Shown: positions 6,653 to 53,464 of the stretch, piece after piece | Layout: each line of letters opens with the position of its first letter | Position numbering within the stretch: position 1 is the stretch's first letter | From: Sphaerolaimus hirsutus | Lineage: Eukaryota; Nematoda; Chromadorea; Monhysterida; Sphaerolaimidae | Direction: 5' to 3' | NCBI GenBank assembly: GCA_964036195.1 | Contig: OZ038452.1 | Location: forward strand, 26,299,785 to 26,363,784 | DNA: 64,000 nt | Position numbers and translations under genes: made by a program | Notes under the pieces: generated by a model | Told to the model about the DNA's origin: nothing | The model's database searches: none | The model's input: only the letters and a program-made list of their open reading frames with translations

Positions 6653-7890
6653 CCGCAGACTCCGCCCTCGCACGCGCGCGTGTCCTCATTGGTTCCTTGG
6701 TAGGCGCGCGTCTGGAAACAGTAGCTACCGTATCCCACGGGTCAATTGCGGTCTGCGTCGCGACAGTTTTATTGTGTGATATTTTAATGAGTGCAAATTG
6801 CTCGAATGCTTCGTCAAGTTCTAATTTCTCGTCGAAAGTTATTGGCGCATCACGCCTTCGGGACAGAGCATCTGCGAGCTCATTGCATTTTCCTTTTAAA
6901 TGCTTGAATGTAATTTGATACGGGGCAATGGCCAATGCAAACTTATGCAATGCGGCGTGTGGTGTAGCCTCCAAATTGGGGTTCTTCACCCAAGGGATAC
7001 TTTTGGCATCAGTCCACACTTCAAAGGGACGTCCCGCCAAGTAGCAATGCCAATTTCGGACGCTCTCAAAAATTGCGTAAGCCTCTAGAGTGATGGCGGG
7101 CCATCTGCTCTGAACCTCAGTCAACTTCCGGCTGTAGAACGCGCACGCATGCAGTCCAGATTTTTCGTCGGCTCGCTGCACCAGCACTCCAGCGACCGCA
7201 ATTTGTGACGCGTCTGTAATTACGATGAACGTTTTATTTGGGTTCGGGTATTGCAAACAGGGGCTGTGTAACAGTATTTCTTTTAATTGGAAGAAAGCTC
7301 TCAGAGCCTCAGGGTTGTCGTTGAGATCTACCGGCGCGTTTCCGTCGTAGTTCTCGCGCGGACCGGTGCGTGTCAAATTCGATAGCGGCACTGCTATTTC
7401 GGCGCACCTGTGTATCATGCGTCTGAAAAATCCCACTGCTCCCAAAAACCCTTTGACTTCCTTGACAGTTTTCGGGAGGGGCCAGTCTGAGATAATATTG
7501 CGTTTGTCCATGGGAATGCAGATGCCCTCACGGCCGATCATGAAGCCCAGAAATTTTACCGCGGTAATGCGTGCGAAAAAACACTTACGGGGACTAATTT
7601 TGAAGTTATTTTTGATCAATCGATCCAAAATTTGGCCGATGTCACTCAAATGGGTTTTCCAGTCCTGACTGTAGATTAGCAGGTCGTCAATGTACAATAG
7701 CACATTGCGATGAATCAATCCCGCCATTGCAAGCTCAAAACACCTTTGTGCCAAACTTGGTGAGCATTTTAATCCCATAGGTAATCTCTTTAACTGGAAT
7801 TGACCAAAAATATTACGGAATGAAGTGATGTGTCTGTCGTCGGGATGCAGTGCAATGTTATAGAAAGCCTGATTAATGTCGGCACTGCTA
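6653..7890 (-). CDS. Retroelement reverse transcriptase (palm) and RNase H
   Basis: The open frame spans 6600-7958, of which about 7890 down to 6653 is genuine pol. Residue numbers count from the ATG at 7958. It contains the RT catalytic box YIDD (residues 89-92; third and fourth residues are the metal-binding aspartates), the thumb region, and an RNase H with D249 (VITDAS), E292 (LEAYAI), D317 (WTDAKS) and D363 (LADALSR). These synthesise cDNA and degrade the RNA template. The first RT motifs lie in the preceding frame; the shift is at a seven-base homopolymer (7890-7896), so the ATG at 7958 is not a natural start. The last codons of the open frame, below 6653, belong to the inserted hAT-like element. 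An RT split in mid-domain points to a single-base indel, by mutation or assembly, rather than normal gene structure. Confidence 0.92.
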
Positions 7891-10800
7891 AAAAAACTTG
7901 CAGTTGCTGAGTGCATCCACGGTGTCATCCAGCCTCGGCAATGGAAATTGCGGCGCATGCAAAACCAAGTTTAATCGCCTGTAATCAATGACCATGCGTT
8001 TAGAACCATCAGGTTTAGAAACAACTAATGTGGGAGCGCAGTATGGGCTTGTGCTTGTTTCAATTATGTCGTGTTCAATTAGACAGCGCAGGTGCTTTTC
8101 CAAGTATTGCTGGTCATCCAGGCTCAACCGATACATGCGGCACGCAATCGGTTTTCGATCAGTCAATTGCAGTCGATAATCGACTAATTCACTGTACCCT
8201 ATGTCGTACTTGTGTCTCGCAAAGGCGCCTTTGTGCTTCAAAAGTACGGCTGCAAGTTCCTCGCGCTCATTTTCCGACAATGTTTGGGGCACAGAAAATT
8301 CCATTTCGTGTCCATCTGGACATTTCACATGCAATGGCTCACCTAATTGGTCTTCAATTACCTTCTCTGGAACGCTTGAAGATACCGGCTCTGTCGCTTC
8401 GTTGGCGCGGCACTGCCGTATCCATTCCTCCGGGGGGTCGCCGGCTTTGACTTTCAGAACACAATCGACGGGCTCAACCAAGCCGATTTTTTGTTCCATC
8501 TGCAAGGTAACTGGTTGATCACGCACGTTTGCGACCCTCATTAGAAACACCTCGTCACTTGTTTCATATGCTGCAGATGCGGCAACTACCCCATCCTTCA
8601 AGTTTACGGATTCCAGCCCAGTGACCGTAAATGTGCGGTAGCTAACTGGAGCTGATAGGCGCACCGGCACCATTGCTTCATGCCTTGCCTTGATTTCGGT
8701 AGCCGCTGTGACTAATGCAAACACTGCCCGAATCTGCACGTCCGGCTTGTGGTTATCAAAAGGAATGCTGACGCCTACTGAGGGAATTTTTAAGAGGCGC
8801 GCGGGCATATCAATTATCATGTGCCGCAGCACGTCCGCGCCCAAAATTAAATTGTCAACCAGGCCATCGATGGCTTGAAAAACAACACGAAACGTGTGTC
8901 CCCCTATATCAATGGGCATTTCCAACTGACCAATTATCATTAGCTTGGAATCCGCAGCGCATCGCATGTGAGAAATGGGAGAAGTTTCTTCAACGGCGTC
9001 ATGTCCATGTCGATGCTCCTGGAACACGTCTCTGCTGCATAACGAGCGCATGGCGCCGGTGTCCAGCAAACATCGGTGGTACATGATGCCGTCCATGCAC
9101 ACGGGCACTGCAGGACTATAGTAGACATGCACAGGCCCGTTCCGCCTCGCGACGACAGACTTTATATTTTCCTGTTCATCTTTTGATAGCGTAATCATTC
9201 TGATTCTATCCACCGATGGGCTCATGGAAATTTCCGCCATTTCTAATTGGTGATTATATTCAATTGATGGAAACATCTGTACCGTTACCGTGTCATCTGA
9301 TGCGCGCTCGGACGCACCTGTTGTCGGATTCAACACGGTCAATCGGCCGTCATGGCTTTTCATAAAACTACGCTTACCTGCGTCTCTGTGTCTGGTAATT
9401 AGCGGCCTCGACTCCCGTCGCAGTCGTCGGCGCGCTCGTTCAATTAGCGTCGTAGCTGCCGGGGGCGCGGCGGCTAACAGAGCTGCTAATAAATACTGGC
9501 AAGTCACTATGGCGCACACCAGGTAAATCCATATCTGCAGCCATGACCTTAAGGCGTCAAAATCCCAAAATCCCACGCTTACCATTGACCTGGCCATTAA
9601 TCGATGCGATTGTAAACTGCCATCAACCGCATGCGTCGGCATTCCATGCACGCGCCGCACAATCGCGTATGAGTGCCACACGTCGTTCAGCGTGGTGGTC
9701 GGCAGCAACTCAGACAAATTGTACATTGTCGTTGCGGCAAAGATCTGATGGTGCACGTCCGTCGGTCGTTCGAGTTGCCACCTGTGCGGGAAACTGTGGG
9801 TGTTGTAAACGGGGATATGTTCCAGGGCGCCTTTCTCAGGTAAATACTTATACCACTGCCCATGCAATTTCAACACACGGTTGTGGCGATTTGTGCACGT
9901 TCCCATAACCGGCTGGAACAGAAGGGCATTTGTAATTGTATCCAAATGCAAGGTCACATTCTGTCCATGCAATTTCATTCGTATTGGGACCGTAGCGTGG
10001 CACGCGCCTTTACCTGTTTCGGTGCCCAACTGATAAGTCTTTACCGCAAAGCACTTATGCACTAGAAATCCGTCTGGCGCCGCCTTGGCCAATATCTCAT
10101 TGTCGCGCATGTACCAGCGCGCCGTGGTCGTCGGGTGCTCGGTCATAGCTAGGCGGAGAAGTTCCTGAAAATGTTGCACATGCCTACAAGTAGACACGGC
10201 CTGTGCACGCATAGTTTGCTCAGATGTCTCGTACACCGCTTGCATCGCGGCGGCCAAGTGACCGGTGTCCACTACGCCAAATCCGGGGCGTGCTGCGCGA
10301 CGCTTCTCCCGCACATACCTAATTGGGGGGATTTCGAACGGTGCCACAACAATATCCTGGTCTGATTTCCATAGTTTTTTACCACATGAAATGATTTCTT
10401 CTTTTGCTCGAAATGACAATGCCAAAGTGTGATCACGCGCGAGCCAAATATCTTGTCTAATTAACCCAGCTATTTCTTGCCATTTCTCATAGGGGCATTC
10501 AGCCTTTGGGTTTGGTTTCCAGACTAATTGGCTACCGTCGGGTAGGGTACAGGTGCCCTCCTCATAATTACACTTTGACACTTCTCCTAACGTACTTTGC
10601 ATAACCTTGGCGCCGTAGCGCATGCGTACATCTCCCTTAAACAACCCACACTGCGGGGTCTTGGTAATTAACCAGCTGCAACAGTACAGCCCGTGCCCCG
10701 AGTAACTCACGTTTGTCGGGTATTGAGTGTCCCATGCGTTGCTCAGCTCGTCCACTGGCTGAAGCGCGCCGTCGTTGCACTTATGGTACTTCATCATGCT

Positions 10801-13800
10801 CTCACACTCCGAGGGATCTACCGCACGCGGCTGCGAGTCAAAATGTTCCAAAGTGACGTCACCCCAGAAGTTCTGGTATGTATGAGCCGACCGCGTGGCC
10901 GCTACACATCGATACGCAGTGGCACGATACTCTACCATATTGCGTTTGTAAATAGTAAGTTTCAGGGGAACCGGTTTAGTCAACGACACAGCAGAATCGA
11001 CTAACGCGGTGCAGTTAGGCAGGTCGGGGTAGGTGTACAAGTCGTAATGATCGGTCAGGTCGCTGCACAGCAGTGGCGTGTCCGGCATCGTCGTGGCCCC
11101 TGCCAACGGCATCAAGCTCAAGCACGCCATCACCACGGCGATGGTGAAAACTGTAAACAAAGCGCCAAAGACTTGATTATTATACGGTGGCTCAGAATAC
11201 GCTCGCTGGCGAGGCACTGCGGACGTTTTGTCTCTAAATTCGGCCATTTTATCAACGCATGTGCTCGAAAACGTACGCGGGGACAAAATCACAGGGGGCT
11301 CATTTAGGAATGGGTCTAATGGGGCGTCACGCAAAACCCTCCACTCGATTCTAGTAAGCGTATCATTATGGTCGTCATGCGGGCGACAGTCTGGGAGCAC
11401 CACGCAATCTTCATCCTTCAGATCATGCATTGCGGTGCGCCGCAGATAATCTAACCAACTGGTACGAAATAGGATTGACGTGGCTTCGCGTTGATACGCC
11501 CAGTGGCTAATCCACTGTTCCCTATCTACCATGAGCGCGTGCATTTTACACTGAAGGCTAGCTACAGGTTGCTCCTCCATCTCCTCCTCCTCGTCAGGGG
11601 CTTCCGGTTCCAGCCCTTGCAATGTCAATAGTTGATCATGATGGAAGAGAATTCTAGCATAAGACGGCGATGACTCGGTCACGGCCTTGTAAGTGCATTC
11701 ACCCACCTGCGTCACTGTCGTCGGGTTCAACAGCGGCACGCTGCTGCTCTGGCCTTGCTGCGATTCCAACGGCCGTTGTGCCGGTTGTGGCTGCGGGTGC
11801 CATCCGATGGCCGCGGGCTGCTGGCTCTGAACGTACACAGGCTGCATCATCTGCGAGGAAGGCACGGTCATAGGTTGACTTAATTGCATCGGTACCCATC
11901 CACCTGGATACCCAAAGTTTTGTGGATATTGTCCTCCCTGTCCACGGCCTCGCCCTCGGCCGCCACCTCTACCGCGCGCACGAAAGTCGCCTCCGCGGCC
12001 ACGCTGATTGCTATCGTTGCCGGCAGATGGCTCGGGAGGGGGCTTATTTGGACACTGGTAGCGAAAGTGATCAGGAGATCCACATTCCCAACATCCATTT
12101 TCAAACCTTTTGGGCGGTAACTCACGCCTCGGGCGCGGTGCGCCCATCATCTTAGCTTCCTGGGCGTCGAGTTTTTTCTGTCGTTCGTCGAGCGCCCGTT
12201 CCTTGGCCTTGAGCTTCGCATTCTCGGCACTCTCTGCCTCCATCGACTGGACCGAGGGGTGCAGGTTCATGGCCATGATGCGCTCCATGACCTGGTTCGA
12301 CGTCTCGGCGACGATCTCGCTGGCCGACTTCGCATGTTCCTTCTGAACGGTTTCAAGGTTTTTATAGCTTTCTTGCATGCGCGCATTATCAACTAATTCC
12401 TTCCAGCTTATATTGGCGTGCACCGCCAGGTTGCGCCTAATGTCCTTGTCCAACCCCTGGTGAAACTTAGTGATGCACATGCCTTCCCTTTGGGCGGAAT
12501 GCAGCATTGGATATGCGCGCTTTACTGCACGTTCCAATCTAGTTGCCCAATCCAGCACAGATTCAGTGGGACTTTGAGTTGACTCAATAAACTCGCGCTG
12601 TGCATGATGCTGGGCGTTTGGGTTTGCAAACAATTCTTCCAAACGATCCATCATGGCTTTGTAATCGAGCGCACGCAGTTCCCGCCTTCTAGCTACAAAA
12701 ATAGAATTGGCATTCTTTTGTAAAAAGATAGGCAGCAACTTTTGCCTAGAGCGCATTGAAACACCTAGCGCATCACACAAAATATCCCACTTACGTCTCC
12801 AATCCTTGAAACTCTTGTCAGCCCTTCCAGTGAATGCATCGCACTGCGTAGCCAGGGCGGTCAGCGTAGCAGCCGTGCCGTGCGGCACCTGGTGCTGCGC
12901 CAGATAGTCTGGATCCGTAGGATTAGGTGCAGGTGAGAGCGATCCTGACGATCCTGGGGAGGAGGGACCCGGCTGTCCCGCCAAATTGATTACACTGGTA
13001 GCTGGTTGAGCCGTAGCGTTTGCAGGCGCAGGTGCCGCTCCACTGCCGCCCGCTGATCCGCTTACACTCGCCGGCGGGGGCACAGTCTGCGCGGTTGTGT
13101 TCCCAGGGGCCGTTCCCGCGCCCAAGGTAGCATTAGCTGCCGAAGCTATGGGTGGAATTAATCCCCTGTTAGAACAAAATGCCAAAAATTGAGTAGTGGC
13201 CTGCTCCAGCGCGCTGGGGTTACCTACGCTGGTGTACATACTTAAACCTAGCCTAATGGCCTGTAGCTTATTTTTATCTGCTGTGGAAGCATTGACTGAA
13301 ATCGCCGCTGGTCCCGCGCGGTTAAGTTCCCCAGACCACTGGTGCAATAGCTGTATCATGCCCGGGAAGGTCCAACCTTCTCTAGTGTACCCAGTGGTTT
13401 CCCTGCCCGGGTCCGCCGCGGTCGCCGCCGTCAGGATCTGGCCCGGCGTCACTTGGTTGGCCGCCGCCGGGGTAGTCGTCACCGTTGTGAGCGTGGCCGG
13501 CGCGGTCGTCACACTCGAACCTGGGGGTGGGGTGCTGGTCATTCTACTTTGATTTATGGGAGACGGTCCTACGATTCTGCGCCGTGCTCTATTCGAAGAG
13601 ACACAGCTTTCAATCGAGCCTTGCGCGGACGCAAGCTCGCGTGGTGTGGATGAGCTTCGCGGGGCACTTAATTGAAGCTCCCCCAATGAATTTTCCGCCT
13701 CTTCGAGCTCTTCGGCTAACGAGGGAAATTCAATATTTATATCTGGGATCGCTACTGGGGTGTCAATTAGATTTACGGAAGTCTCACCACTTCTACGCTG

Positions 13801-14397
13801 GTATGCAGACGAACTCACGGGCTCGTCTTCACCAGCGTACCCTGCTGAATCAGCCTGTGATCCAGACCCTGTCGACACCGGGGAGCTACGGCCGCTTTTT
13901 CCCCACGGTCGTCGAAATAAACCCCACTTACCTGATTTCCGCTGCTCTCGCCCGGGCTCAGCACTTACTGGCCTGTCGGGTCGCAGGAGCGGACTATCTG
14001 GTGGGCGTTCTGTTTCTGTGCCTCCACTGGACGCTCGTCGAGCCGCCCCAGTCGGTAGCGCACCTGGCGCGCAAGCCGGCGTATCCCAACGGCTGCCGCC
14101 TGTTCCTGCACGTGCAATTCCAAATTGCAGCACTGGCCGGACGACGGGAGTGCTATCCTCTGTGCGTCTGGTCCAAGTCGCTGCTTCCTGTGCGCGCTCG
14201 GCTTCCGCTTCCGCTTCCTGCGCACCTGCTTCAACTCTTACCTGTTCAACCTCAGCGTCCTGCGCGTCCGCAGTCTGCTGTGCCCTGCGCAACGCCGCTT
14301 CTCGGCGCGTGCGCTTCTGTAGCTGTTCTGCAGCTCTCCACACTTCCTCAACTGACCCTGGGATCGACGCTGGCCCTCCTGACCGCAGCGTTTCCAC
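7888..14397 (-). CDS. Gag / internal glycoprotein / protease / RT (N-terminal part) polyprotein
   Basis: This frame of 2169 codons opens at ATG 14397, about 85 bp after a putative primer binding site. In order: a low-complexity N-terminal region; a Ty3-like capsid around 530-720 (for example REFIESTQSPTESVLDWATR); a CX2CX4HX4C zinc knuckle (C769-C782) with an RGG-rich tail; a hydrophobic segment at about 1076-1101; a cysteine-rich ectodomain-like stretch with NCT, NVS, NVT and NLS glycosylation sequons and a furin-like REKRR (1363-1367); a second membrane segment at about 1619-1645; an aspartic protease LLDTGA (D1779); and the fingers of RT up to 2169. Two membrane spans would leave Gag and Pol cytosolic and the middle part lumenal. 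Envelope genes normally follow pol, so the position is unusual. I could not assign the ectodomain to a glycoprotein class. Confidence 0.9.
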   Translation of the reverse strand: METLRSGGPASIPGSVEEVWRAAEQLQKRTRREAALRRAQQTADAQDAEVEQVRVEAGAQEAEAEAERAQEAATWTRRTEDSTPVVRPVLQFGIARAGTGGSRWDTPACAPGALPTGAARRASSGGTETERPPDSPLLRPDRPVSAEPGREQRKSGKWGLFRRPWGKSGRSSPVSTGSGSQADSAGYAGEDEPVSSSAYQRRSGETSVNLIDTPVAIPDINIEFPSLAEELEEAENSLGELQLSAPRSSSTPRELASAQGSIESCVSSNRARRRIVGPSPINQSRMTSTPPPGSSVTTAPATLTTVTTTPAAANQVTPGQILTAATAADPGRETTGYTREGWTFPGMIQLLHQWSGELNRAGPAAISVNASTADKNKLQAIRLGLSMYTSVGNPSALEQATTQFLAFCSNRGLIPPIASAANATLGAGTAPGNTTAQTVPPPASVSGSAGGSGAAPAPANATAQPATSVINLAGQPGPSSPGSSGSLSPAPNPTDPDYLAQHQVPHGTAATLTALATQCDAFTGRADKSFKDWRRKWDILCDALGVSMRSRQKLLPIFLQKNANSIFVARRRELRALDYKAMMDRLEELFANPNAQHHAQREFIESTQSPTESVLDWATRLERAVKRAYPMLHSAQREGMCITKFHQGLDKDIRRNLAVHANISWKELVDNARMQESYKNLETVQKEHAKSASEIVAETSNQVMERIMAMNLHPSVQSMEAESAENAKLKAKERALDERQKKLDAQEAKMMGAPRPRRELPPKRFENGCWECGSPDHFRYQCPNKPPPEPSAGNDSNQRGRGGDFRARGRGGGRGRGRGQGGQYPQNFGYPGGWVPMQLSQPMTVPSSQMMQPVYVQSQQPAAIGWHPQPQPAQRPLESQQGQSSSVPLLNPTTVTQVGECTYKAVTESSPSYARILFHHDQLLTLQGLEPEAPDEEEEMEEQPVASLQCKMHALMVDREQWISHWAYQREATSILFRTSWLDYLRRTAMHDLKDEDCVVLPDCRPHDDHNDTLTRIEWRVLRDAPLDPFLNEPPVILSPRTFSSTCVDKMAEFRDKTSAVPRQRAYSEPPYNNQVFGALFTVFTIAVVMACLSLMPLAGATTMPDTPLLCSDLTDHYDLYTYPDLPNCTALVDSAVSLTKPVPLKLTIYKRNMVEYRATAYRCVAATRSAHTYQNFWGDVTLEHFDSQPRAVDPSECESMMKYHKCNDGALQPVDELSNAWDTQYPTNVSYSGHGLYCCSWLITKTPQCGLFKGDVRMRYGAKVMQSTLGEVSKCNYEEGTCTLPDGSQLVWKPNPKAECPYEKWQEIAGLIRQDIWLARDHTLALSFRAKEEIISCGKKLWKSDQDIVVAPFEIPPIRYVREKRRAARPGFGVVDTGHLAAAMQAVYETSEQTMRAQAVSTCRHVQHFQELLRLAMTEHPTTTARWYMRDNEILAKAAPDGFLVHKCFAVKTYQLGTETGKGACHATVPIRMKLHGQNVTLHLDTITNALLFQPVMGTCTNRHNRVLKLHGQWYKYLPEKGALEHIPVYNTHSFPHRWQLERPTDVHHQIFAATTMYNLSELLPTTTLNDVWHSYAIVRRVHGMPTHAVDGSLQSHRLMARSMVSVGFWDFDALRSWLQIWIYLVCAIVTCQYLLAALLAAAPPAATTLIERARRRLRRESRPLITRHRDAGKRSFMKSHDGRLTVLNPTTGASERASDDTVTVQMFPSIEYNHQLEMAEISMSPSVDRIRMITLSKDEQENIKSVVARRNGPVHVYYSPAVPVCMDGIMYHRCLLDTGAMRSLCSRDVFQEHRHGHDAVEETSPISHMRCAADSKLMIIGQLEMPIDIGGHTFRVVFQAIDGLVDNLILGADVLRHMIIDMPARLLKIPSVGVSIPFDNHKPDVQIRAVFALVTAATEIKARHEAMVPVRLSAPVSYRTFTVTGLESVNLKDGVVAASAAYETSDEVFLMRVANVRDQPVTLQMEQKIGLVEPVDCVLKVKAGDPPEEWIRQCRANEATEPVSSSVPEKVIEDQLGEPLHVKCPDGHEMEFSVPQTLSENEREELAAVLLKHKGAFARHKYDIGYSELVDYRLQLTDRKPIACRMYRLSLDDQQYLEKHLRCLIEHDIIETSTSPYCAPTLVVSKPDGSKRMVIDYRRLNLVLHAPQFPLPRLDDTVDALSNCKFF

Positions 14398-14482
14398 CCG
14401 GCGCGACAGATCGTTTGTTACTTATCACTTAACGGCTTGGCGTTGATCAGGCGCCGCACCGTTCACTGAAGTGAATTAAGCT

Positions 14483-16733: not shown

Positions 16734-17213
16734 GTGGCAATCCCAAGCCCTGTAAAGTGTAAAATAAAGTGTCAAATATAAAGTCAAATGCAATGTCAAA
16801 TGTCAAATGTAAAGTAAAGTGTCAAATGCAAATTCAAATGTCAAATGTAAAGTGTCAAATATAAAGTGTCAAATATAGAGTCAAATGTAAGATAAAGTGT
16901 CAATAGTGTATCCAGATCTTATTTTTGTGTATCCAAATCTTATGTTTTTGTATTCAAATATATTTTCGAAAAATAAGATTTGGATACAAAAACATAAGAT
17001 TTGGATACTCAAAAAAAGATTTGGATACACAAAAATAAGATTTGGATACACAATTGACACTTTACTTTGTATTTGACATTTGAATTTGCATTTGACACTT
17101 TACTTTACATTTGACTTTACATTTGACACTTTACTTTACTTTTGACATTTGACTTTGCATTTGACTTTACGTTTAACACTTTACACTTTACACTAGCTTG
17201 GGACTGTCCCCAG
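16734..17213 (+). mobile_element. Introner-like inverted-repeat element, copy H1
   Basis: The left boundary is CAG|GTGGCAATCCCAAGCCCTG and the right boundary is GGGACTGTCCCCAG|GA. Inside are inverted arrays of TGTAAAGTGTCAAATG-type units around a palindromic core of GTATCCAAATCTTA repeats, so the whole element can fold back. In plus orientation it starts with GT and ends with AG, like an intron. Whether the flanks are exons is unclear, though a short frame stays open across the junction. Confidence 0.65.
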
Positions 17214-22935: not shown

Positions 22936-23153
22936 CTGGGGCACTCCAAGACACCTTAAAAGACCATGTAAATTGTCATGTGTCATGTAAAAGACCATGT
23001 AAAGTGTCAAATGGCATGTAACAATGACATTTGACACATTACAGGGTCTTTTACATGACACATAACATTTTACAGGATTTTTTACATGACACATAGCATT
23101 TTACAGGGTCTTTTACACTTTACAGGGTCTCTTACAGGGTCTGGAAGTGGCAC
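22936..23153 (-). mobile_element. Introner-like element H2, 5' of the DB gene
   Basis: Read on the minus strand it starts CAG|GTGCCACTTCCAGACCC and ends GGAGTGCCCCAG|GCG. It is filled with GTCAAATGTCATGTAAAAG repeats in inverted arrangement. It sits about 380 bp upstream of the DB-gene start codon in the same orientation, so it could be a 5' UTR intron. This is untested. Confidence 0.6.
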
Positions 23154-25401: not shown

Positions 25402-26264
25402 CAGAGTTGTGCAAATACTGGTATTTTTGGAAAACGTAAACGTAAACGTAAATACATTTTTCAAATCAAAAGTATCAATACTAAAACGTAAGGTATTTTA
25501 AAAATACCAAGGAATACGTAAAATAAAACGTAAACGTAAAAAAAAATTTTACACACAGTATTTGCCATTGTGCTGTGGAAAATACCATTATTTTCACACG
25601 TCATGACTGGCGTCACTCCCAGACCCTATAAAATGCCCTGTAAAATGTCAAATGTCATGCAAAGTGTCTTAAGTCATGCAACATGCTCTGGCAGGTGGCA
25701 AAACTTCGCCATTTTGCTGGGCATTTTACATGAGTTTTGATATTTGCATGAAATTTAACATTTTTCAAGGCATCCTACAGAGTCTGGGATTGGCTGGCAC
25801 CAGAGCTTGCACTCGCCCTGCCAGTTTCAAAATGTGTGCTACTCACAGTTGTTGCAAGTGGCGTTGTCGGAATTCATCACAAAAAAATTTTAACGCAAGG
25901 CTCCACAAATAAACAAAAAGGTTTCTGTGTTCAGCATTTGAACACATTTATGAATATGTACCCAGTATTCCATGTGTAAGTGCAAGCGTGCAGTCACTTT
26001 TTCATATACCGCTTTTTTGTATAAATGTTACATTTATGCAAAAACATAAGAATATTGTTGGCTGCAGGTGGTGCAGCGCATTTGAACGTGTGCACGTGTG
26101 AACGATCACAAGTTTTTTACGTTTTCCCTAGTACCCGGGTATTTTCGTCAGGAAAACGTAACAAAACGTAATGGTATTTTTGGAAAACGTAAACGTAAAC
26201 GTAAGTATAAATACCCGAATAACCGGGTATTTCGGGTAAACGTAAATACGTTTTTCCAACTCTG
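25402..26264. mobile_element. hAT-like element, family E
   Basis: The ends CAGAGTTG/CAACTCTG carry a perfect 8-bp duplication CTAGGTAC (25394-25401 and 26265-26272). AACGTAAACGTAAACGTAAA arrays lie at both ends. An introner-like element (25607-25800) is nested inside. Confidence 0.87.
25607..25800 (-). mobile_element. Introner-like element H3 nested in a hAT-like element
   Basis: On the minus strand: CTG|GTGCCAGCCAATCCCAG at the start and GGAGTGACGCCAG|TCATG at the end. TGTAAAATGTCAAATGTCATG units are inside. Because it lies in another transposon, it is not an intron here. Confidence 0.65.
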
Positions 26265-38057: not shown

Positions 38058-38815
38058 GGTGCCGGTTCCGCAAGTGGACAAGTTAAGAGTTAAAAGTTAA
38101 GAGTTGAGTAAAAAGACAAATGGCGAGTTAAGAGTAAAGTTAAAGTTTAAGAGAAAAGTTAAAGTTTAAGAGAAAAGTTAAAATTTAAGAGAAAAGTTAA
38201 AAGTTGAGTTAAAGGTTAAGAGTTGAGTTAAAGGTTAAAAGTTGAGTTAAGAGTTAAAAGTTGAGTTAAGAGTTGAGTTAAGAGTTAAGAGACAAGTGGA
38301 AAATGAAGGTAAAAAAATATAAAAAAATAAAAATATGAAATTGGTATCGATACGGCTGTTCGCTGGCATGGTGCCAATGTTGTATGCACGTCATTTGAAA
38401 ATAACGTATCCAAAAAAATTATCGCTAAAAAAAGAAAAAATCGCCGAACGTTGTTTTGAAATGGCCGTGCGGGGACAAAATATGATTGAAGATCAGCGTA
38501 TCGCGCTTCTGCAACGAATGACCCATTTGTCTTTTAAATCAACTTTTAACTCATCTTTTAACCTTTAACTCAACTCTTAACATTTAACTCAACTTTTAAC
38601 CTTTAACTCAACTCTTAACTTTTAACTCAACTTTTGACTCAACTTTTAACCTTTAACTCAACTCTTAACTTTTAACTCAACTTTTGACTCAACTTTTAAC
38701 CTTTAACTCAACTCTTAACTTTTAACTCAACTTTTGTCTCAACTTTTAACCTTTAACTCAACTCTTAACTTTTAACTCTTAACTTGTCTACTTGCGGAAC
38801 TGGCCCCTGGTGCCC
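38058..38815. repeat. Inverted-repeat element of GTTAAGAGTTGA tandem arrays (family M)
   Basis: The outer ends GGTTCCGCAAGTGGACAAG and CTTGTCTACTTGCGGAAC are inverted. Inside, a block of AGTTAAGAGTTGAGTTAAA units (38076-38310) faces an inverted block of TTTAACTCAACTCTTAAC units (38530-38780), around about 220 bp of unique AT-rich sequence. It can form a very long hairpin and does not code. Confidence 0.8.
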
Positions 38816-45250: not shown

Positions 45251-48200
45251 ATGGACGTTTTCAAACGGTGAAATTTGAGGTCCAGTCCAGGCATCATTGA
45301 AACATGTGAGTTACCTTAATATGTACTTTGAAAGATAATGATTTTTGGCCAGGCGCCAAAATGGCGTTGGCCTCACCACACAACACTACTTGACAAACTA
45401 ATAAATATGTTTGAAAATATTTGAGTTTACCATTATGAATTTTTATTCATCCATACGTCCACGTGTCTACAGAGCTACCCTCCCCCTTTACACAGGTCGC
45501 CCAGTCACTCGACTGGCACGCACAACTTCGGATCGCTGTCGCCCGGCCAGGTGCCCATTCCAAAAGTGCACAAGTGCCATCATAAGTCGTATGTCTTAAG
45601 GTTCTTAAGTGTTAAATAAAGTTATCATTAAATAACTAAAGTTATCATAAATTAAACAAGTTAAGTGTTAAATAAAGTTAAATAAGTAGAGTTATCACTT
45701 GTATTTTCACATACCGTATTTCCTCGAATTACCTCCACGGTTTTTTTGTCAGCAAATTTTGAGTAGGGTCAATTCGAGGGGGTGGGGCTTATTCAAGGAA
45801 GGTTTTATTGTTTCGTCAGAAATTTTCATGAAGGCTTTTACAGGCTTTTACTTTATAATAGGCTTTTACATACCGAAACTGTTGATAATTGTGATAAAAC
45901 AGGATATATTTGAACGTGTGTAGCTGCGATGCAAATTGGCAGCAATTAAAATATCAATACATTGCATAGACGATGTGCATCATTCAAGACGGGGGTATTT
46001 CGAGGGGTGTTATCATTTCCCCAGGTCGCTCAGACCTGGGGGTATTTCGAGTGGGGGGTCAATTCGAGGGGGGGGGTTCTTTCCTTATCCTTTAAATTCA
46101 ACTATTGTTGTCACACGCGCACGTGTGGAATCGGCTCCAGGTGCTAATGCTACGCTCTTCGTGGCGCCAGGTTCAGGGCCACAACTTGGCGTCGCACCTG
46201 GGATCAGTGCTGCGAAAACTTCGGGGCGTGAATGTCAACTCGCTGTTTACTAGGGCCTCCTTGCTAAGTGTCGGCAGAGGTGAGGATTTTTGGGCGTGAA
46301 AAAGTTTGTTTTTTTGTTTTGTGGTGCAAGCAAACGCAGAGGTGGTTTTCAAACTGTTGGGTATACTAGATAATTATGTCACGGATGCGCATGTTTTTTT
46401 GCGCTGATAAGGATAAGTTTCGGTTTGGATGCACACTTCTTTTGCACAATTGTGATTATGAATGAATAAGCATTCCCACAAACTAGCGCAAGCGAACTCC
46501 TTTCGCTGAGTTCAACAGCACGCGCTTGTTCCGCAGGTTCCGGCACAGTGGAAACACTACAACAGATGGAACAAAATCCTAACCTGGGTGAGTTTTCTTC
46601 TTCATAATTTGCTTGGCACCGGGCCAAAAATGAATATACCTATAACTCATGAGTCATGACTGGCTATCAAAAACTCGACCGCAACGCAAACCTTCATCCA
46701 CCCCCCCCCCCTCGACCAGATTCCCCCACGGCCGATCTGCAACCCCCTTCGCGGCCGCGCGCCGCCAGCGAGTCGCGCCCACCAGGCTCGCGCAATTTCA
46801 CCCTCCCCAACCCCCAAACCGACTCCGCTTACTCGCACTTGAATCGATCGCTGTCCAAAATGAATTATTCGCAAAACGATCACGCACTTCTGCTGGTCGA
46901 TTTGATCAACGAATTGATGCCGATTTTGGCGCAGCCGGGCAGGTGCCACTCCGAGACCCTGTAAAAAAACCCTGAAAAGTTTGAAAGACCCTGTAAAATG
47001 TCATGTGTCATGTAAAAGACCCTGAAAAGTGTCAAATGTCATGTAAAATACCCTGTAAAGGGTCATGTGTATCCAAATCTTCTTTTGTCGTATCCAAATC
47101 ATATGGTTTTGTATCCAAATCTTACTTTTGGACATAAGATTTGGATACAAAAACGTAAGATTTGGATACGATAAAATAATATTTGGATGCACATGACATT
47201 TGACTTTACAGGGTCTTTTACATGACACATGACATTTTACAGGGTCTTTGACACTTCACAGGGTCTTTTACAGGGTCTGGTAGTGCCCCCAGGTGCGCGC
47301 AAAAGTTGCAAGCTGTTGGGGCTGCCCACGCCAGGTTTGTTGGGGTGGAAAACTTGGTTTTCTTTGGAGTTACAATGTGATGTAAGAAGTGTTGATTTAT
47401 GAGCTTTTTAATTTTGAATGTCAGGCCTTTGAAAATTTCTAAATCTGATAATCAAATAGATGTCTAAGATGAGTCGCCGTGATCAGGGTTGGTTTTATAA
47501 AAATCATTTGTATACAATTTGTATAAAAATTGTATAAAAATGTATTTTATTTTTATTTTATTCTCGTTTCATTTTATTTTATTTTATTCCAAAATAATAA
47601 TAAAATAATAAAATGGACTATTTTACAAAAATTTTACAGAAATTTTACAAAAAATCTGAATCTTGCATGTAAGGTCAGAAAAATGTGATAATAAGACCTA
47701 AACATGAAAAACGTCTGACAAATTTTTCCATTACTTTGCAAAAGTTGCATGCAGTAGGTATTGTTAGCTAGTTGCAAGTGTTAAGTTACAATTATTGATA
47801 AGAATGGTTTGCATTTTCAGTAGAAGGATTACTGGAGTGTGCTGGGCGCATTTGTAAAACATCATGCAAAGTGTCAATTGTCATGACAAATGTAGTAAAG
47901 AGTCAATTGGCATCTCAAATGTCAAGCAAAGTATTATTGTCATGACAAATGTCGTGCAGAGTGTAAATTGTGTATCTGAATCTTATGTTTTGGTATCCAA
48001 ACCTTATATTTTGGTATCCAAATCATATGTTTTTATATCCAAATGTTCACATAAGATTTGGTTACAAAAACAACAAGATTTGGATACAAAAGATAAGATT
48101 TGGATACAAAAGATAAGATTTGGATACAATTTGCTTTACAGTTTCCACTTTAATTTATATTTGTCATGACAATTGACACTTTAACATTTTCATGGAAATT

Positions 48201-50069
48201 GACACTTTCCATTCCATTTCATATGACATTTTGACACTTTACATGGCTTGGGACTGCCCCAGCTCCGCGAATGAACAGGTTGAACTATAAACAACAGAAA
48301 AAAATTTTTACAAAAAATATGAATTTTTATACAATTTTTACAAAAATATCAATTTGTATACAATTTTACAAAAATTTTACAAAAATTCAAATTTTTATAC
48401 AATTTTTATTTTTATTTTGAAATTTTCCATTTTATTTTATTATTTTTTATTCTTCAATTTTCCATTTTATTTTTATTTTATTTTTATTCTTTTCTGAGAT
48501 TTTGCCAACCCTGGCCGTGATGAAATAAATACGATTGAAACGAAATTGCCATTTTTTAGCTACTCCTAAATTTCGATCACATTCTGTCAAAAATTACTGA
48601 ACTCAAAACCATCAAGTAAACTTTCCATGAAAAAAAGAACACCGGAGTTGAAAAATCAGATGGAACGACCTCCAGGGACTTAAACTAAACTTCTCAGAAA
48701 TTGAAAACGTAGTTAATTGTTAAAAAAAACATGGGCTTGATTCAACGTAAGCCACACGTAAATACTTGAAATTCTTTGAATTTGAGGACAGTTTTCGGTG
48801 CCACATACCGCCCTCAATTCAGACTGTATCCAGTCGGCTTCACTGGCGATATGTGGGAGAAATGGGGCCAGGTAGCAATCCCAGACGCTGTAAAATGTCC
48901 TGTAAAATGTCAAATGTCATGCAAAGCAGAGTTGTTAAAATACCGGTATTTTTGGAAAGTGTAAGTGTAAGTGTAAATACACTTTCCAAATTTTGAGTAT
49001 GGATACTGTAAGTGTAAGGTATTTTTAAAATACCTAGGAAAGTGTAAAAAATAGTGTATTTAAGTGTAAAATTTTTTTTAGAAAGAGCTCTCACTGTTGA
49101 GCATCAGAAAACACCACTGTTTTCACCTTTAGATCAATTTATTTATCATTTTCATGCATTAGTTCACATTTTACTGCTGTATGAACAGCCGTATGAAACA
49201 TTTCAGACTGTAACAAATTTAGTGGTTATGAAGTTGCGTAATAATGGCACGTTTTCAGTGTTGATATTTTACTGATTAAGCTATGTGATACACACTGTTT
49301 AAATACAAGAATGGACATACAGCAATAATGTCAGTGCAAAAGCCAGTGTCCAGCAGGTGAAATTGATCTTGTCTTTTTTACAAAGTATGATGAAACTGTA
49401 GAATACCATGAGGTTGGAGCTGGTGCACGTTTGTACATTTGCTATATTTTCTACATTCAATGCATAACTGCATGTGTGCACTGTGCAGTTATTTTTTGTA
49501 CATGACCCAGTTTTATGCCTCCTCAAATGCTTCAAACAGGGCCATATGAAAGGAAAAAATACACTTTCTGTATCCGGGTATTTTGCCCAGGAAAGTGTAA
49601 AAAAAGTGTACGGGTATTTTATGAAAGTGTAAGTGTAAGGGTAAATATAAATACCCATTTACCCGGGTATTTCGGGTAAGTGTAAATACACTTTCGCAAC
49701 TCTGATGCAAAGTGCCAAAAGTGATGTAAAATGCCACGGAAAAAATCCAGGCATTTTACATGACTTTTGGCACTTGACATGACATTTGACATTTGACAGA
49801 GCATTTCACAGGTCTGGGACTGCCCCCAGGCTGCCTTGTCCACAATCTCAACTCTGGACACCGTGGAGAAAAATAAGGAGTCGCTCAAGGCCTGGCGTCT
49901 TTTTTTAGCCACGTGCACGCACGCCATAAGGTAAATGCTGAAATGACTAGTGAGTGACTAGAGTAGAGCGATGCATTTACATTGGCAATGTATTTATTAC
50001 ATAAGAAATCGTCATTTTTACAGGGATGTGTTGGTGGTAGCGGACAACTTTATCTGTAGTTATTGGTAA
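45251..50069 (+). CDS. Globin with a proline-rich insertion, nine exons, two made of introner-like introns
   Basis: Model: 45251-45267, 45496-45550, 46141-46279, 46537-46587, 46654-46942, 47293-47334, 48787-48871, 49830-49930 and 50024-50069; 825 nt, 274 residues, with every junction in phase. Globin features: A-helix Trp in LRSSWRQV, CD1 Phe in NSLFTRA, E-helix NDHALLLVDLINEL, F-helix proximal His in LQAVGAAHAR, and G/H helices ending LKAWRLFLATCTHAI. These support haem binding, though oxygen transport versus sensing cannot be told. A Pro/Ser-rich insertion of about 60 residues sits between the C/D and E regions. Introns 46943-47292 and 48872-49829 are complete introner-like elements; 47335-48786 holds a hAT-like element. 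TTCATTAAATTGCAG at 45211-45225 could be a trans-splice acceptor. The first two exons and the last are the least certain. Confidence 0.8.
45712..46081. repeat. Family J remnant in a globin intron
   Basis: Left end TACCGTATTTCCTCGAATTA; the right arm has GGGGTCAATTCGAGGGGGGG without a clean terminal repeat. Confidence 0.6.
46943..47292 (+). mobile_element. Introner-like element H4, complete globin intron
   Basis: Boundaries are CAG|GTGCCACTCCGAGACCC and GGTAGTGCCCCCAG|GTG. The interior has inverted TGTCATGTAAAAGACCCTG arrays around a palindrome of GTATCCAAATCTTA units. The globin frame is continuous when exactly this segment is removed, joining the E-helix end to the F helix. Confidence 0.85.
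47484..48513. mobile_element. hAT-like family G element (TTTTTATACAA repeats) in globin intron
   Basis: Ends CAGGGTTGG/CCAACCCTG with a perfect 8-bp duplication GCCGTGAT (47476-47483 and 48514-48521). AT-rich TTTACAAAAATTTTAC arrays are at both ends. An introner-like copy is nested at about 47853-48262. Confidence 0.86.
47853..48262 (+). mobile_element. Introner-like element H5 nested in the family G element
   Basis: The right end TTGGGACTGCCCCAG is clear; the left end is degenerate near TTGTAAAACATCATGC. It has the same GTCAAATGTCATG and GTATCCAAATCTTATG arrays. It is not an exon boundary here. Confidence 0.55.
48872..49829 (+). mobile_element. Introner-like element H6, complete globin intron with a nested hAT-like element
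   Basis: Boundaries are CAG|GTAGCAATCCCAGACGC and TCTGGGACTGCCCCCAG|GCT. Removing it leaves the globin frame continuous in phase 0 within the G-helix region. Without the 778-bp family E insertion and its duplication, the element is about 170 bp. Confidence 0.84.
48927..49704. mobile_element. hAT-like family E element (GTGTAAGTGTAA units) inside introner H6
   Basis: Ends CAGAGTTG/CAACTCTG with a perfect 8-bp duplication ATGCAAAG (48919-48926 and 49705-49712). The subterminal unit is GTGTAAGTGTAAAT, where the 25402-26264 copy has AACGTAAACGTAAA, so the unit has changed between subfamilies. Confidence 0.9.
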
Positions 50070-50147: not shown

Positions 50148-50601
50148 TACCGTATTTCCTCGAAATACCCCCGGGGGGTTTATTGTTTCAGAGTGAGAAT
50201 TTTGAGGGGGGTTAAACGAGGGGGGGGGGGTATTTCGAGGGGGGGGTTTATTATTTCGCCAGAAATTTTTTGAAATCCCAGTACTAAAATGTCGTCTGAA
50301 ACGTACGCAGACGTCGAAAAATGCAACAAAAATAGCCATTTATAAGACTCTAAAGACATTTATAAGTGTGTAGACGTACAAACAGTGTTCTCACATAACA
50401 GAGTCATCGTTTTTAACGTGTGTTCTGCATTGCCGGGATGACAAACCGCAGCCTTTGTCATTTACGTTCTCTATACACTAAATTTGGGGGGGGGGTATTT
50501 CGAGGGGGGGGTTTATAAGTTCATAGTGTCCATTTTGAGGGGGGGTATTTCGAGGGGGGGGGTATTTCGAGGGGGGGGGGGTATTTCGAGGAAATACGGT
50601 A
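50148..50601. repeat. Family J element (37537-type subtype)
   Basis: Inverted ends TACCGTATTTCCTCGAAATA. It shares the GCAGACGTCGAAAAATGC interior with 37537-37999. G-run arms are adjacent to the globin 3' end. Confidence 0.82.
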
Positions 50602-51444: not shown

Positions 51445-52335
51445 TACCGTATTACCTCGAATCACCCCCTTTTGAATTCACCTCCCTCCTCGAATATGGA
51501 TGGCCAAAAATGTTTTTAAAGACCCTGATTTTTTTTAAATAAAACGGTTTTTTTTTAAAAGCTCCCAAATATCGTTGTGCACAGCAAAAAATGGGTGTGT
51601 GGATGCGCGGTGAAGTGTGGGGAAGTGTTTTCACGCCGACACTTCCCGACGCTTCACCAAGCACGAAAGCGCTTACACACGCATCACGAAAATCTGCGTG
51701 ATCGCACTTCACGCTTTCTTGTATGGCGCTCCGACACACATGTATACGTACGGGAAGCGTGTGGAAGCGCCAGCGCGGTGAAGTGTCTTCCACATTTTGG
51801 ATGCGCGTGAAGCGCGCGGTGAAGCTAGGTGAAGCGTGTGGAAGACACTTCACCGAGATTTTCGTGATGTTGGTGGAAGCGTGTGGAAGCGCGCCGCTTC
51901 ACGCGCATCCAGGCTGCTTCCACACGCTTCACGAATCCATTTTTTGCTGTGATGGGTCAACATATTTGCCTGTCAAGTGACGGCTACAGTATGCCAGATG
52001 ACTTTAACCATTTTAATGGCAACTTGAAAGAAAATTCGTCACTTGACAGGGTGTCGATTTTGGATGACCGATGAATGTCTGACAAATTTTTTTTTTTTGG
52101 AGGGGGTACCTTCTCTATGGATGTAATGGATGGTAATGATAATGGATGGTACAGGATGTAAAAAAATCAACAAACGAAAAAAACCTCGAATACCCCCGCG
52201 TCGGATGACCGCCCTCGAATGACCCCCCTCGAATGACCCCACCCCCCTCGAATAAGCCTCTCCTCTAGTTAACCCCCTCAAATTTTGCTCGCGAAATAAT
52301 TAACACCCATGGGGGTATTTCAAGGTAATACGGTA
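51445..52335. repeat. Family J element interrupted by a CACTA-like element
   Basis: Ends TACCGTATTACCTCGAATCA and TATTTCAAGGTAATACGGTA. The CACTA-like element 51580-51951 lies in the left half. Confidence 0.75.
51580..51951. mobile_element. CACTA/EnSpm-like element, second copy
   Basis: Ends CACAGCAAAAAATGG / CCATTTTTTGCTGTG. The flanking triplets GTG and ATG agree at two of three bases. Dense GTGAAGCGTGTGGAAG subterminal units as in 32143-32917. Confidence 0.7.
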
Positions 52336-52366: not shown

Positions 52367-52506
52367 GTGCCAATCCCAGACCCTGTCAAATGCCTTGTAA
52401 AATATTAAATGTAGAATGTGAGACAAAGTGTCAAAAGTCATGTAAAATGCCCTGGAAAATGACAAACGTACATTTGACATTTTACAAGGTCAAGGACTGC
52501 CCCCAG
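52367..52506 (+). mobile_element. Introner-like element H7, shortest intact copy (140 bp)
   Basis: CAG|GTGCCAATCCCAGACCCTG at the left and AAGGACTGCCCCCAG at the right. TGTAAAATGCCCTGGAAAATG-type repeats are between. No flanking exon is recognised. Confidence 0.75.
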
Positions 52507-53464
52507 TACACTATTATGGTGAGCTAATAACACGCTTTGCACAGGATTTTCCAAAAGTACAGAAAAAGATGTGGTATAATATGTTAAAAAAATACAGAAT
52601 TTTGTTCGTTTTCAGACGGCAAATTAATATATGGTGAAATTGTGTAAAGTGCAACAGAACAGTGCAAAGTGTGCAGTCAGCAATCCATTCCTATGCCTGA
52701 AAAAACTTCCATGAAAAAATTGGCAGCGAAACGTGAATGTTTGCGACCGTTGTCTATTAAATAATTTCCCACGCGTCAATTTATCAATGTTATTTGAATA
52801 TATTGTAGATACGCAACACGATTCATAATATAATACCTTACTCGAATGCTAATGCGGATTTAGGACAATTTCCCACATTTACCATTTGCACCTAGCGTCT
52901 ATGCGGCCCTTGCTAAGCGGTTCCACTCGCATGGAATTATCGTGGAATAGATGGTGGAATTGTAAGTTTGACCCGTGTGAAGACGGAAATTCAAAACGTA
53001 AAATAGTTTTGACACTTTTTTCAGCCAAGAAAAATAGAATGTCGTCCTTCGATACAACGACAAAACAGATAGGTACCCTAAATCCACGAATAAGTCCCTA
53101 GGGGAGTTATTTTTTCATCAGAAGTTTTTGAGGGGGGAGTTATTCGAGGGGGAGTAATTGTTTCCTCAGAAAACTTGGACTTGATTCATTGTATGGATGC
53201 AGTCTTTCAACTCATGTAATTCAGGTATAGAACTGTCTAACAAAAAAAAAAGTGTATACACTGCATACACATCGTGTATCTGCTATCGCTGCCGTACGAT
53301 AATATACTTTTGTATTTTGTATTGCATCCTTGTTATCCTGAGGGAGGGGTTATTCTAGGAGGAAGTTATTTTTTCCTCACCTCGCCAACAGGGGGGGTAT
53401 TCAAGGGGGGTTATACGAGGGGGGTTTTTCAAGGATTTTCGGTACTCCCATCGAGGTGTACTCT
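52507..53464. other. No supported gene
   Basis: AT-rich sequence; 53050-53440 contains diverged family J arms (for example CTAGGGGAGTTATTTTTTCA and GGGGGTTATACGAGGGGGG). No coding or RNA gene was recognised. Confidence 0.4.

Follow-up and report, generated by a model that had tools for sequence, protein, structure and literature searches.

Introners that carry terminal inverted repeats (TIRs) and target-site duplications (TSDs) and form whole introns have been described, including a class in Chrysochromulina with its own 5' splice site and a co-opted 3' site (PMC9860276). That study (Gozashti et al. 2022; PMC9860276), in whose main text the string 'nematod' is absent, surveyed animals and land plants and reports introners there from two animal groups alone. 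The origin of new introns is a long-standing question, and animals have so far looked almost free of introners. Here we examine a 64,000-nucleotide window of the genome of the nematode Sphaerolaimus hirsutus (contig OZ038452.1, positions 26,299,785 to 26,363,784 of the forward strand, assembly GCA_964036195.1), in which introns 1 and 3 of a globin gene fragment are very probably introners, former transposons of a family that recurs throughout the genome. Judged from the DNA, this nematode genome harbours an introner family. A 2022 study of nematode intron gain cites introner elements to illustrate how a source of introns can stay hidden; in the parts of it used here, it reports none in nematodes. 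Titles and the beginnings of abstracts in the open-licence literature contained no report of nematode introners, which is not proof of priority.

Three further systems come close. Introners of the dinoflagellate Amoebophrya, as excerpted here, have inverted repeats that can fold into a hairpin, direct repeats of 3-5 nt at exon borders and many boundaries other than GT-AG, seen in RNA (PMC7789003). NuwaI transposons, of the PHIS superfamily, are found in animals, have a 5'-CWG-3' TSD and usually have TIRs that start with GGG; the hosts named in the available part of that account do not include nematodes, nor is intron formation described in it (PMC4482050). Finally, TG has been described as the terminal dinucleotide of U2 introns, with alternative sites of this kind in 36 human genes in the part of the report drawn on (PMC2374985).

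The globin fragment has four exons and lies on the forward strand at about 46860-49930 of the window (Table 1). Intron 1 (GTGCCACT...TAGTGCCCCCAG, 350 bp) and intron 3 (GTAGCAAT...GACTGCCCCCAG, 958 bp) hold only one element each between the flanking exons, from GT to AG, the second of them together with a repeat nested in it. Both were located where the initial annotation of this stretch had placed them and with the termini it gave, although the interior of the intron-3 element had to be corrected: its edges stand, and between them lies a 169-bp core with a nested repeat of 778 bp (TIR CAGAGTTG, 8-bp TSD ATGCAAAG) that is presumably hAT-like. Intron 2 is ordinary, with the acceptor junction CAATTCAG/ACTG at 48822/48823. 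Taking out the three introns leaves 275 nt without a stop, translated as MNYSQNDHALLLVDLINELMPILAQPGRCAQKLQAVGAAHARLYPVGFTGDMWEKWGQAALSTISTLDTVEKNKESLKAWRLFLATCTHAI(R), whereas keeping either element in brings an in-frame stop. The annotation was thus right that exact removal keeps the frame open and that the first junction leads into the F helix with its proximal histidine. The Pfam Globin model matches the spliced fragment with E=7.6e-4 and 20.4 bits. An earlier acceptor for intron 2, which began exon 3 too early, gave a worse Globin E of 0.015 to 0.23 and was replaced after paralog alignment. Matches in PDB to this early model were due to chance, and no homologs were scored when the same early, partly wrong model was searched against a large protein collection.

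Within the same 348-Mb genome, whose loci are given L-numbers below, a search with the early globin model returned 10 matches. Four of them fall in the window gene, and the remaining six are spread over five other loci. These five are globin-like paralogs (L033-L037), two of them confirmed by Pfam (L033 and L034). In the closest, L033 (genome search E=3e-9; Pfam Globin 9.8e-5, 23.3 bits, above the cut-off), one exon runs ungapped over the intron-1 site and stops, with matching phase, at the intron-2 site; the exon after it crosses the intron-3 site; the ordinary intron 2 is therefore common to the window gene and this paralog. L034 has a single exon over all three intron sites (Pfam Globin E=4.9e-11, 43.6 bits), and L035, L036 and L037 are continuous through the intron-3 site. 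The check for the same introns in other globins, named in the initial annotation and run here on same-genome paralogs, thus found intron 1 absent in 2/2 paralogs covering its site and intron 3 absent in 5/5, an outcome that leaves the introner reading standing.

The presence of family copies inside older introns raises another explanation, namely that introns 1 and 3 are ordinary old introns invaded later by the repeats, whose ends reached the splice sites by chance. Copies of this kind do exist away from intron edges, one in intron 2 of the window gene and one in L035 (reverse strand, 575-751), which has CAG on both sides and sits inside an existing intron. However, introns 1 and 3 contain nothing beyond the element and its nested repeat, the paralogs covering the sites have no introns there, and the exact fit of element to intron recurs in other genes, which makes a later invasion very unlikely. 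In L037 a CAG/CAG copy at 1082-1303 occupies a position unused in the window gene and appears to be an intron following the H-helix exon.

A 192-bp family consensus was built from 30 near-full-length copies; divergence from this consensus is 2-10% for 29 of them and 38% for the remaining copy. It folds as a single hairpin (-169 kcal/mol), with a loop of 4 nt and with 4 bases left unpaired at either end. The left end reads GTGCCA[A/G]TCCCAGACCC and the right end, read inward, GGGGCAGTCCCAGACCC; the main differences between the two lie at positions 2 and 4 (GTGCCA on the left against GGGGCA on the right), and the T at position 2 of the left end is what provides the GT donor. With up to one mismatch, the right-end sequence TCTGGGACTGCCCCCAG occurs 4941 times in the genome, as against once for a reversed control. 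The 24 end-pairs located in 262,020 bp include 13 whose two flanking triplets agree, being CAG or CTG in every case (10 CAG and 3 CTG in the element's own orientation). Since the middle base varies between copies and matches within a copy, the triplet has the signature of a target-site duplication. The family is a foldback miniature inverted-repeat transposable element (MITE): it is short, has TIRs but no transposase of its own, is present in many copies of similar length and has a 3-bp CWG TSD (CAG/CAG or CTG/CTG). As initially annotated, it also recurs elsewhere in the window (Table 1).

A sister repeat was noted at 38059-38806 of the window and at three other loci (L018 589-745, L019 5613-5795 and L015 1721-1899). 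It begins much as the family does (GTGCC/GGGCC..TTCCGCAAGTGG or near) and is flanked by CWG on either side. The CWG-flanked MITE group thus seems to comprise at least two subfamilies in this genome.

As far as the sources drawn on describe them, the introners of Gozashti et al. resemble this family in being TIR/TSD elements that act as whole introns, one class of them with its own 5' site and a co-opted 3' site; the family differs in its nematode host, its 3-bp CWG TSD, a hairpin over its full length and a target from which either AG or TG results. With the Amoebophrya introners, again as excerpted, it has in common the hairpin, the short direct repeats and possibly a non-canonical boundary, but where those repeats and boundaries are diverse there is here one TIR family, known from DNA alone, whose left boundary is GT and whose right boundary is AG, or possibly TG. 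The CWG TSD and the GGG that opens the right end agree with the partial account of NuwaI, unlike the left end, which starts GTG, and no transposase is tied to the termini. The family is accordingly NuwaI-like and not NuwaI, having the TSD and one of the two ends.

The proposed route from transposon to intron is as follows. A short non-autonomous palindromic DNA transposon would insert at CWG and duplicate it, and sense insertion at CAG would yield ...CAG/GTGCCA[hairpin]...GACTGCCCC/CAG/... In such an arrangement the first CAG would make a good exon end, the left transposon end the GT, the right end a C-rich tract and the duplicated CAG the AG. The spliceosome would then remove the element with one CAG and leave the mRNA unchanged, and the hairpin might bring the splice sites together. 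The initial annotation had the element supply both splice sites; this held for the donor, which is the element's own end (as is the C-rich tract), and not for the acceptor, whose AG belongs to the duplicated target CAG. We infer the splice boundaries from restoration of the protein. The TSD and termini suggest mobilisation by a CWG-targeting DDE transposase, for example one of the NuwaI group of PHIS.

The annotated reading of these introns as introners gains from other genes, in which the same element is an exact intron. We examined 45 copies, 26 in 20 ten-kilobase loci around the best similarity matches and 19 from right-end lists (the first 10 CTG and first 10 CAG matches listed, one of them without a recognisable left end). 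Pfam was run on 34 of the 45 after removal of the element and one TSD, or with use of an adjacent AG, and sense phases were chosen largely by eye as the most plausible open reading. A Pfam match spanned the junction at E<0.01 in 9/34 copies, a fraction that is not an estimate of how many copies are exonic, as Pfam misses many short exons. Seven of the nine were above the Pfam cut-off: GH63 (L018, 6.4e-23), OSCP1 (L051, 4.4e-17), tyrosine kinase (L010 at 5773, 4.5e-15), STAG (L063, 4.7e-13), FLYWCH (L024, 1.8e-10), sterol-sensing (L014, 1.8e-9) and MetRS (L016, 6.1e-7). The other two, ASC (6.4e-4) and EGF (1.4e-3), both in L011 (at 1078 and 4865), were below it. For GH63, NPC1L1, cohesin SA-1 and MetRS, the alignment to relatives in PDB shows no gap at the junction. 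Phases 0, 1 and 2 are all represented among the junctions, and retention of the element introduced stops in 5/5 cases checked, namely the two introns of the globin and the copies in L010, L051 and L055. A script comparison of 14 joined strings with their loci found 13 in letter-for-letter agreement, and also confirmed where the junction falls; the string for L024, one residue short, was corrected and rerun.

Several candidates were left out of this count. NHL in L055 (0.01), 7tm_1 in L022 (0.031) and tyrosinase in L028 (0.075) were weak. The RIM/PDZ match in L013 begins past the junction, though RIM2 in PDB aligns across it with a small gap nearby, and the leucine-rich repeat (LRR) gene in L061 has repeats on both sides of the junction. 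Retrocopies were sought as a stand-in for cDNA with a 3100-base query of 14 joined junctions, which returned only the source loci and a second copy of the LRR locus. This second copy of the L061 exons, on the small contig C397 (853-1264), has a gap of similar size and is perhaps an alternative haplotype with the same intron.

A number of observations weigh against the reading of these elements as introners. The window globin by itself scores under the Pfam cut-off, narrowly missing 22 bits, and L035-L037 are weak genome-search matches (E=0.002, 0.09 and 0.4) that were not run through Pfam. Absence of the introns in paralogs could reflect loss, although repeated losses would be needed. Flanking triplets are unequal in 11 of the 24 end-pairs, several of them shifted by one C. 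No junction-spanning domain was found at E<0.01 in 25/34 of the Pfam-run copies, and 11/45 lay outside the Pfam set; a large share of the copies probably lie between genes or inside older introns, the latter being the case in intron 2 and L035. Lastly, an antisense control on 20 copies is weak and asymmetric, with the sense phase chosen by eye and the antisense by longest open frame: it gave 1/20 at E<0.01 (CcmB, 0.008, below the cut-off) and 0/20 above the cut-off, and the sense-antisense difference has a Fisher p=0.07 at E<0.01 and p=0.04 above the cut-off. The case for generality owes less to this control than to how strongly the best matches score and to their alignment without gaps.

Copies at CTG targets present a separate problem. 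Sense insertion at CTG leaves a GT but no AG. If such copies were irremovable, conserved exons would be expected to lack them; yet they are found there. The copies in the receptor tyrosine kinase (L010) and OSCP1 (L051) genes are CTG/CTG, that in the FLYWCH gene (L024) has CAG on the left and CTG on the right, and a further CTG/CTG copy lies in the borderline NHL gene (L055, 0.01). At L010 and L051 the protein is restored exactly only if the copy is spliced GT...TG. In three conserved genes (L016, L018 and L063) the left triplet is CTG and the right side is changed, with AG exactly in the frame position. With regard to selection of loci, L063 came from the right-CAG list, and L051 and L055 from the right-CTG list.

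Genome-wide, exact right ends adjoin 989 CAG and 732 CTG (p=6e-10) and exact left ends 1377 CAG and 1228 CTG (p=0.004). The CAG bias is stronger at the right end than at the left (Fisher p=0.003), in a comparison where the copies sampled are not exactly the same, since the left pattern accepts A or G at one site while the right pattern accepts only C at the mirrored site. The left ratio would be diluted by any symmetric elements; none were seen among the 24 end-pairs. When a copy sits in an exon, its left TSD belongs to the exon and its right TSD forms the 3' splice site, and the right-end excess of CAG is therefore in the direction predicted by selection for AG.

It is possible, if slightly doubtful, that the element makes introns at both targets, GT-AG at CAG and a functional GT...TG at CTG, with the hairpin perhaps helping and selection later changing CTG to CAG. 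Compared with the human TG sites, as far as the report drawn on describes them, TG would here be the outcome of transposon target choice. There is an even chance, however, that copies at CTG are not spliced at TG, and that either splicing goes to an AG further downstream, at the cost of some codons, or the alleles are broken. AG is the rule in U2 introns, as stated in the part of the source drawn on (PMC2374985), and L051 (+18 nt), L055 (+15), L024 (+12) and L010 (+57) all have an in-frame AG further downstream; with divergence of about 6% in L051 and L055, the short stretch of codons up to the next AG could still look intact after ceasing to code. Against this, use of the downstream AG lowers the domain score in 4/4 cases (OSCP1 63.1 to 42.1 bits, kinase 56.1 to 27.2, FLYWCH 41.2 to 33.6, and NHL from 16.3 to no listed match), and the joined-junction query for the four CTG genes returned source loci only, with no near-identical intact second copy seen. 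With thousands of copies, intron-less paralogs and stages at CAG, at CTG and at CTG changed to AG, the birth of introns and the improvement of 3' splice sites could be watched in this family, in a phylum with strong genetics.

Exact restoration of the frame by CAG and CTG copies alike would also be explained by precise excision at the DNA level, restoring one CWG in the soma in the manner of the internal eliminated sequences of ciliates, in place of splicing. Such excision would not predict the sense excess of domains (9/34 against 1/20 antisense at E<0.01, 7 against 0 above the cut-off), nor the right-end CAG excess of 989 to 732 and its greater bias than at the left end. None of these points is decisive alone; DNA excision is a highly improbable account beside removal by splicing.

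No autonomous partner of the family was found in the 10 transposase loci examined. A NuwaI element would go with a related DDE transposase, and a Myb/SANT protein, bearing the same TIRs. PF13359 (transposase) has 163 matches in the genome, and around the transposase at 10 of these loci no terminus pair matching that of the family (GTGCCARTCCCAGACC...GGTCTGGGACTGCCCC) was present within the 3.6-4.5 kb of sequence covered. The dominant PF13359 family differs at the one end seen (GGCCCCACGCAC...), and two weaker PF13359 loci had no matching end pair around the transposase. The dominant, Harbinger-type family is itself numerous and uniform (97-99% alike pairwise in 7 of 8 loci compared, about 89% in the eighth) and was apparently recently active.

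Table 1. Globin gene fragment and repeat-family copies in the window (strand '.' where none is assigned)
Feature	Position	Strand	Remarks
Globin exon 1	46860..46942	+	E helix with distal-type His; 3' end is left TSD copy CAG (46940-46942); model begins here
Intron 1, putative introner copy	46943..47292	+	element 46943-47289 plus right TSD CAG (47290-47292) giving AG; phase 2
Globin exon 2	47293..47334	+	F helix with proximal His
Intron 2, ordinary GT-AG	47335..48822	+	position and phase common to L033
Degraded family copy within intron 2	47838..48263	+	away from intron edges; left end approximate
Globin exon 3	48823..48871	+	3' end is left TSD copy CAG (48869-48871)
Intron 3, putative introner copy	48872..49829	+	element 48872-49826 (169-bp core and nested repeat) plus right TSD CAG (49827-49829); phase 0
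Nested repeat in intron-3 element	48927..49704	.	
Globin exon 4	49830..49930	+	H helix
Family copy, 137 bp	52367..52503	+	CAG/CAG TSD; no gene recognised around it
Diverged longer family copy	16734..17210	+	CAG/CAG TSD; no gene link
Family copy	22939..23153	-	CAG both sides; beside GGCGCC-type repeats
Family copy, about 85% to consensus	25607..25799	.	altered ends

Other features of the window were noted in passing. The DB family is typical of nematodes, and a DB module in the window (E=8.6e-14; 17 DB matches genome-wide) fits a nematode source. On the reverse strand, 7888-14421 holds a retroelement open reading frame of 2177 aa, in which stretches like a zinc knuckle and a reverse transcriptase can be recognised by eye, and more retroelement pieces lie nearby. 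Tracts of GGGGGGTATTTCGAGG / CCTCGAATAACCCCC recur at 50170-50600, 52180-52310, 53080-53430 and elsewhere.

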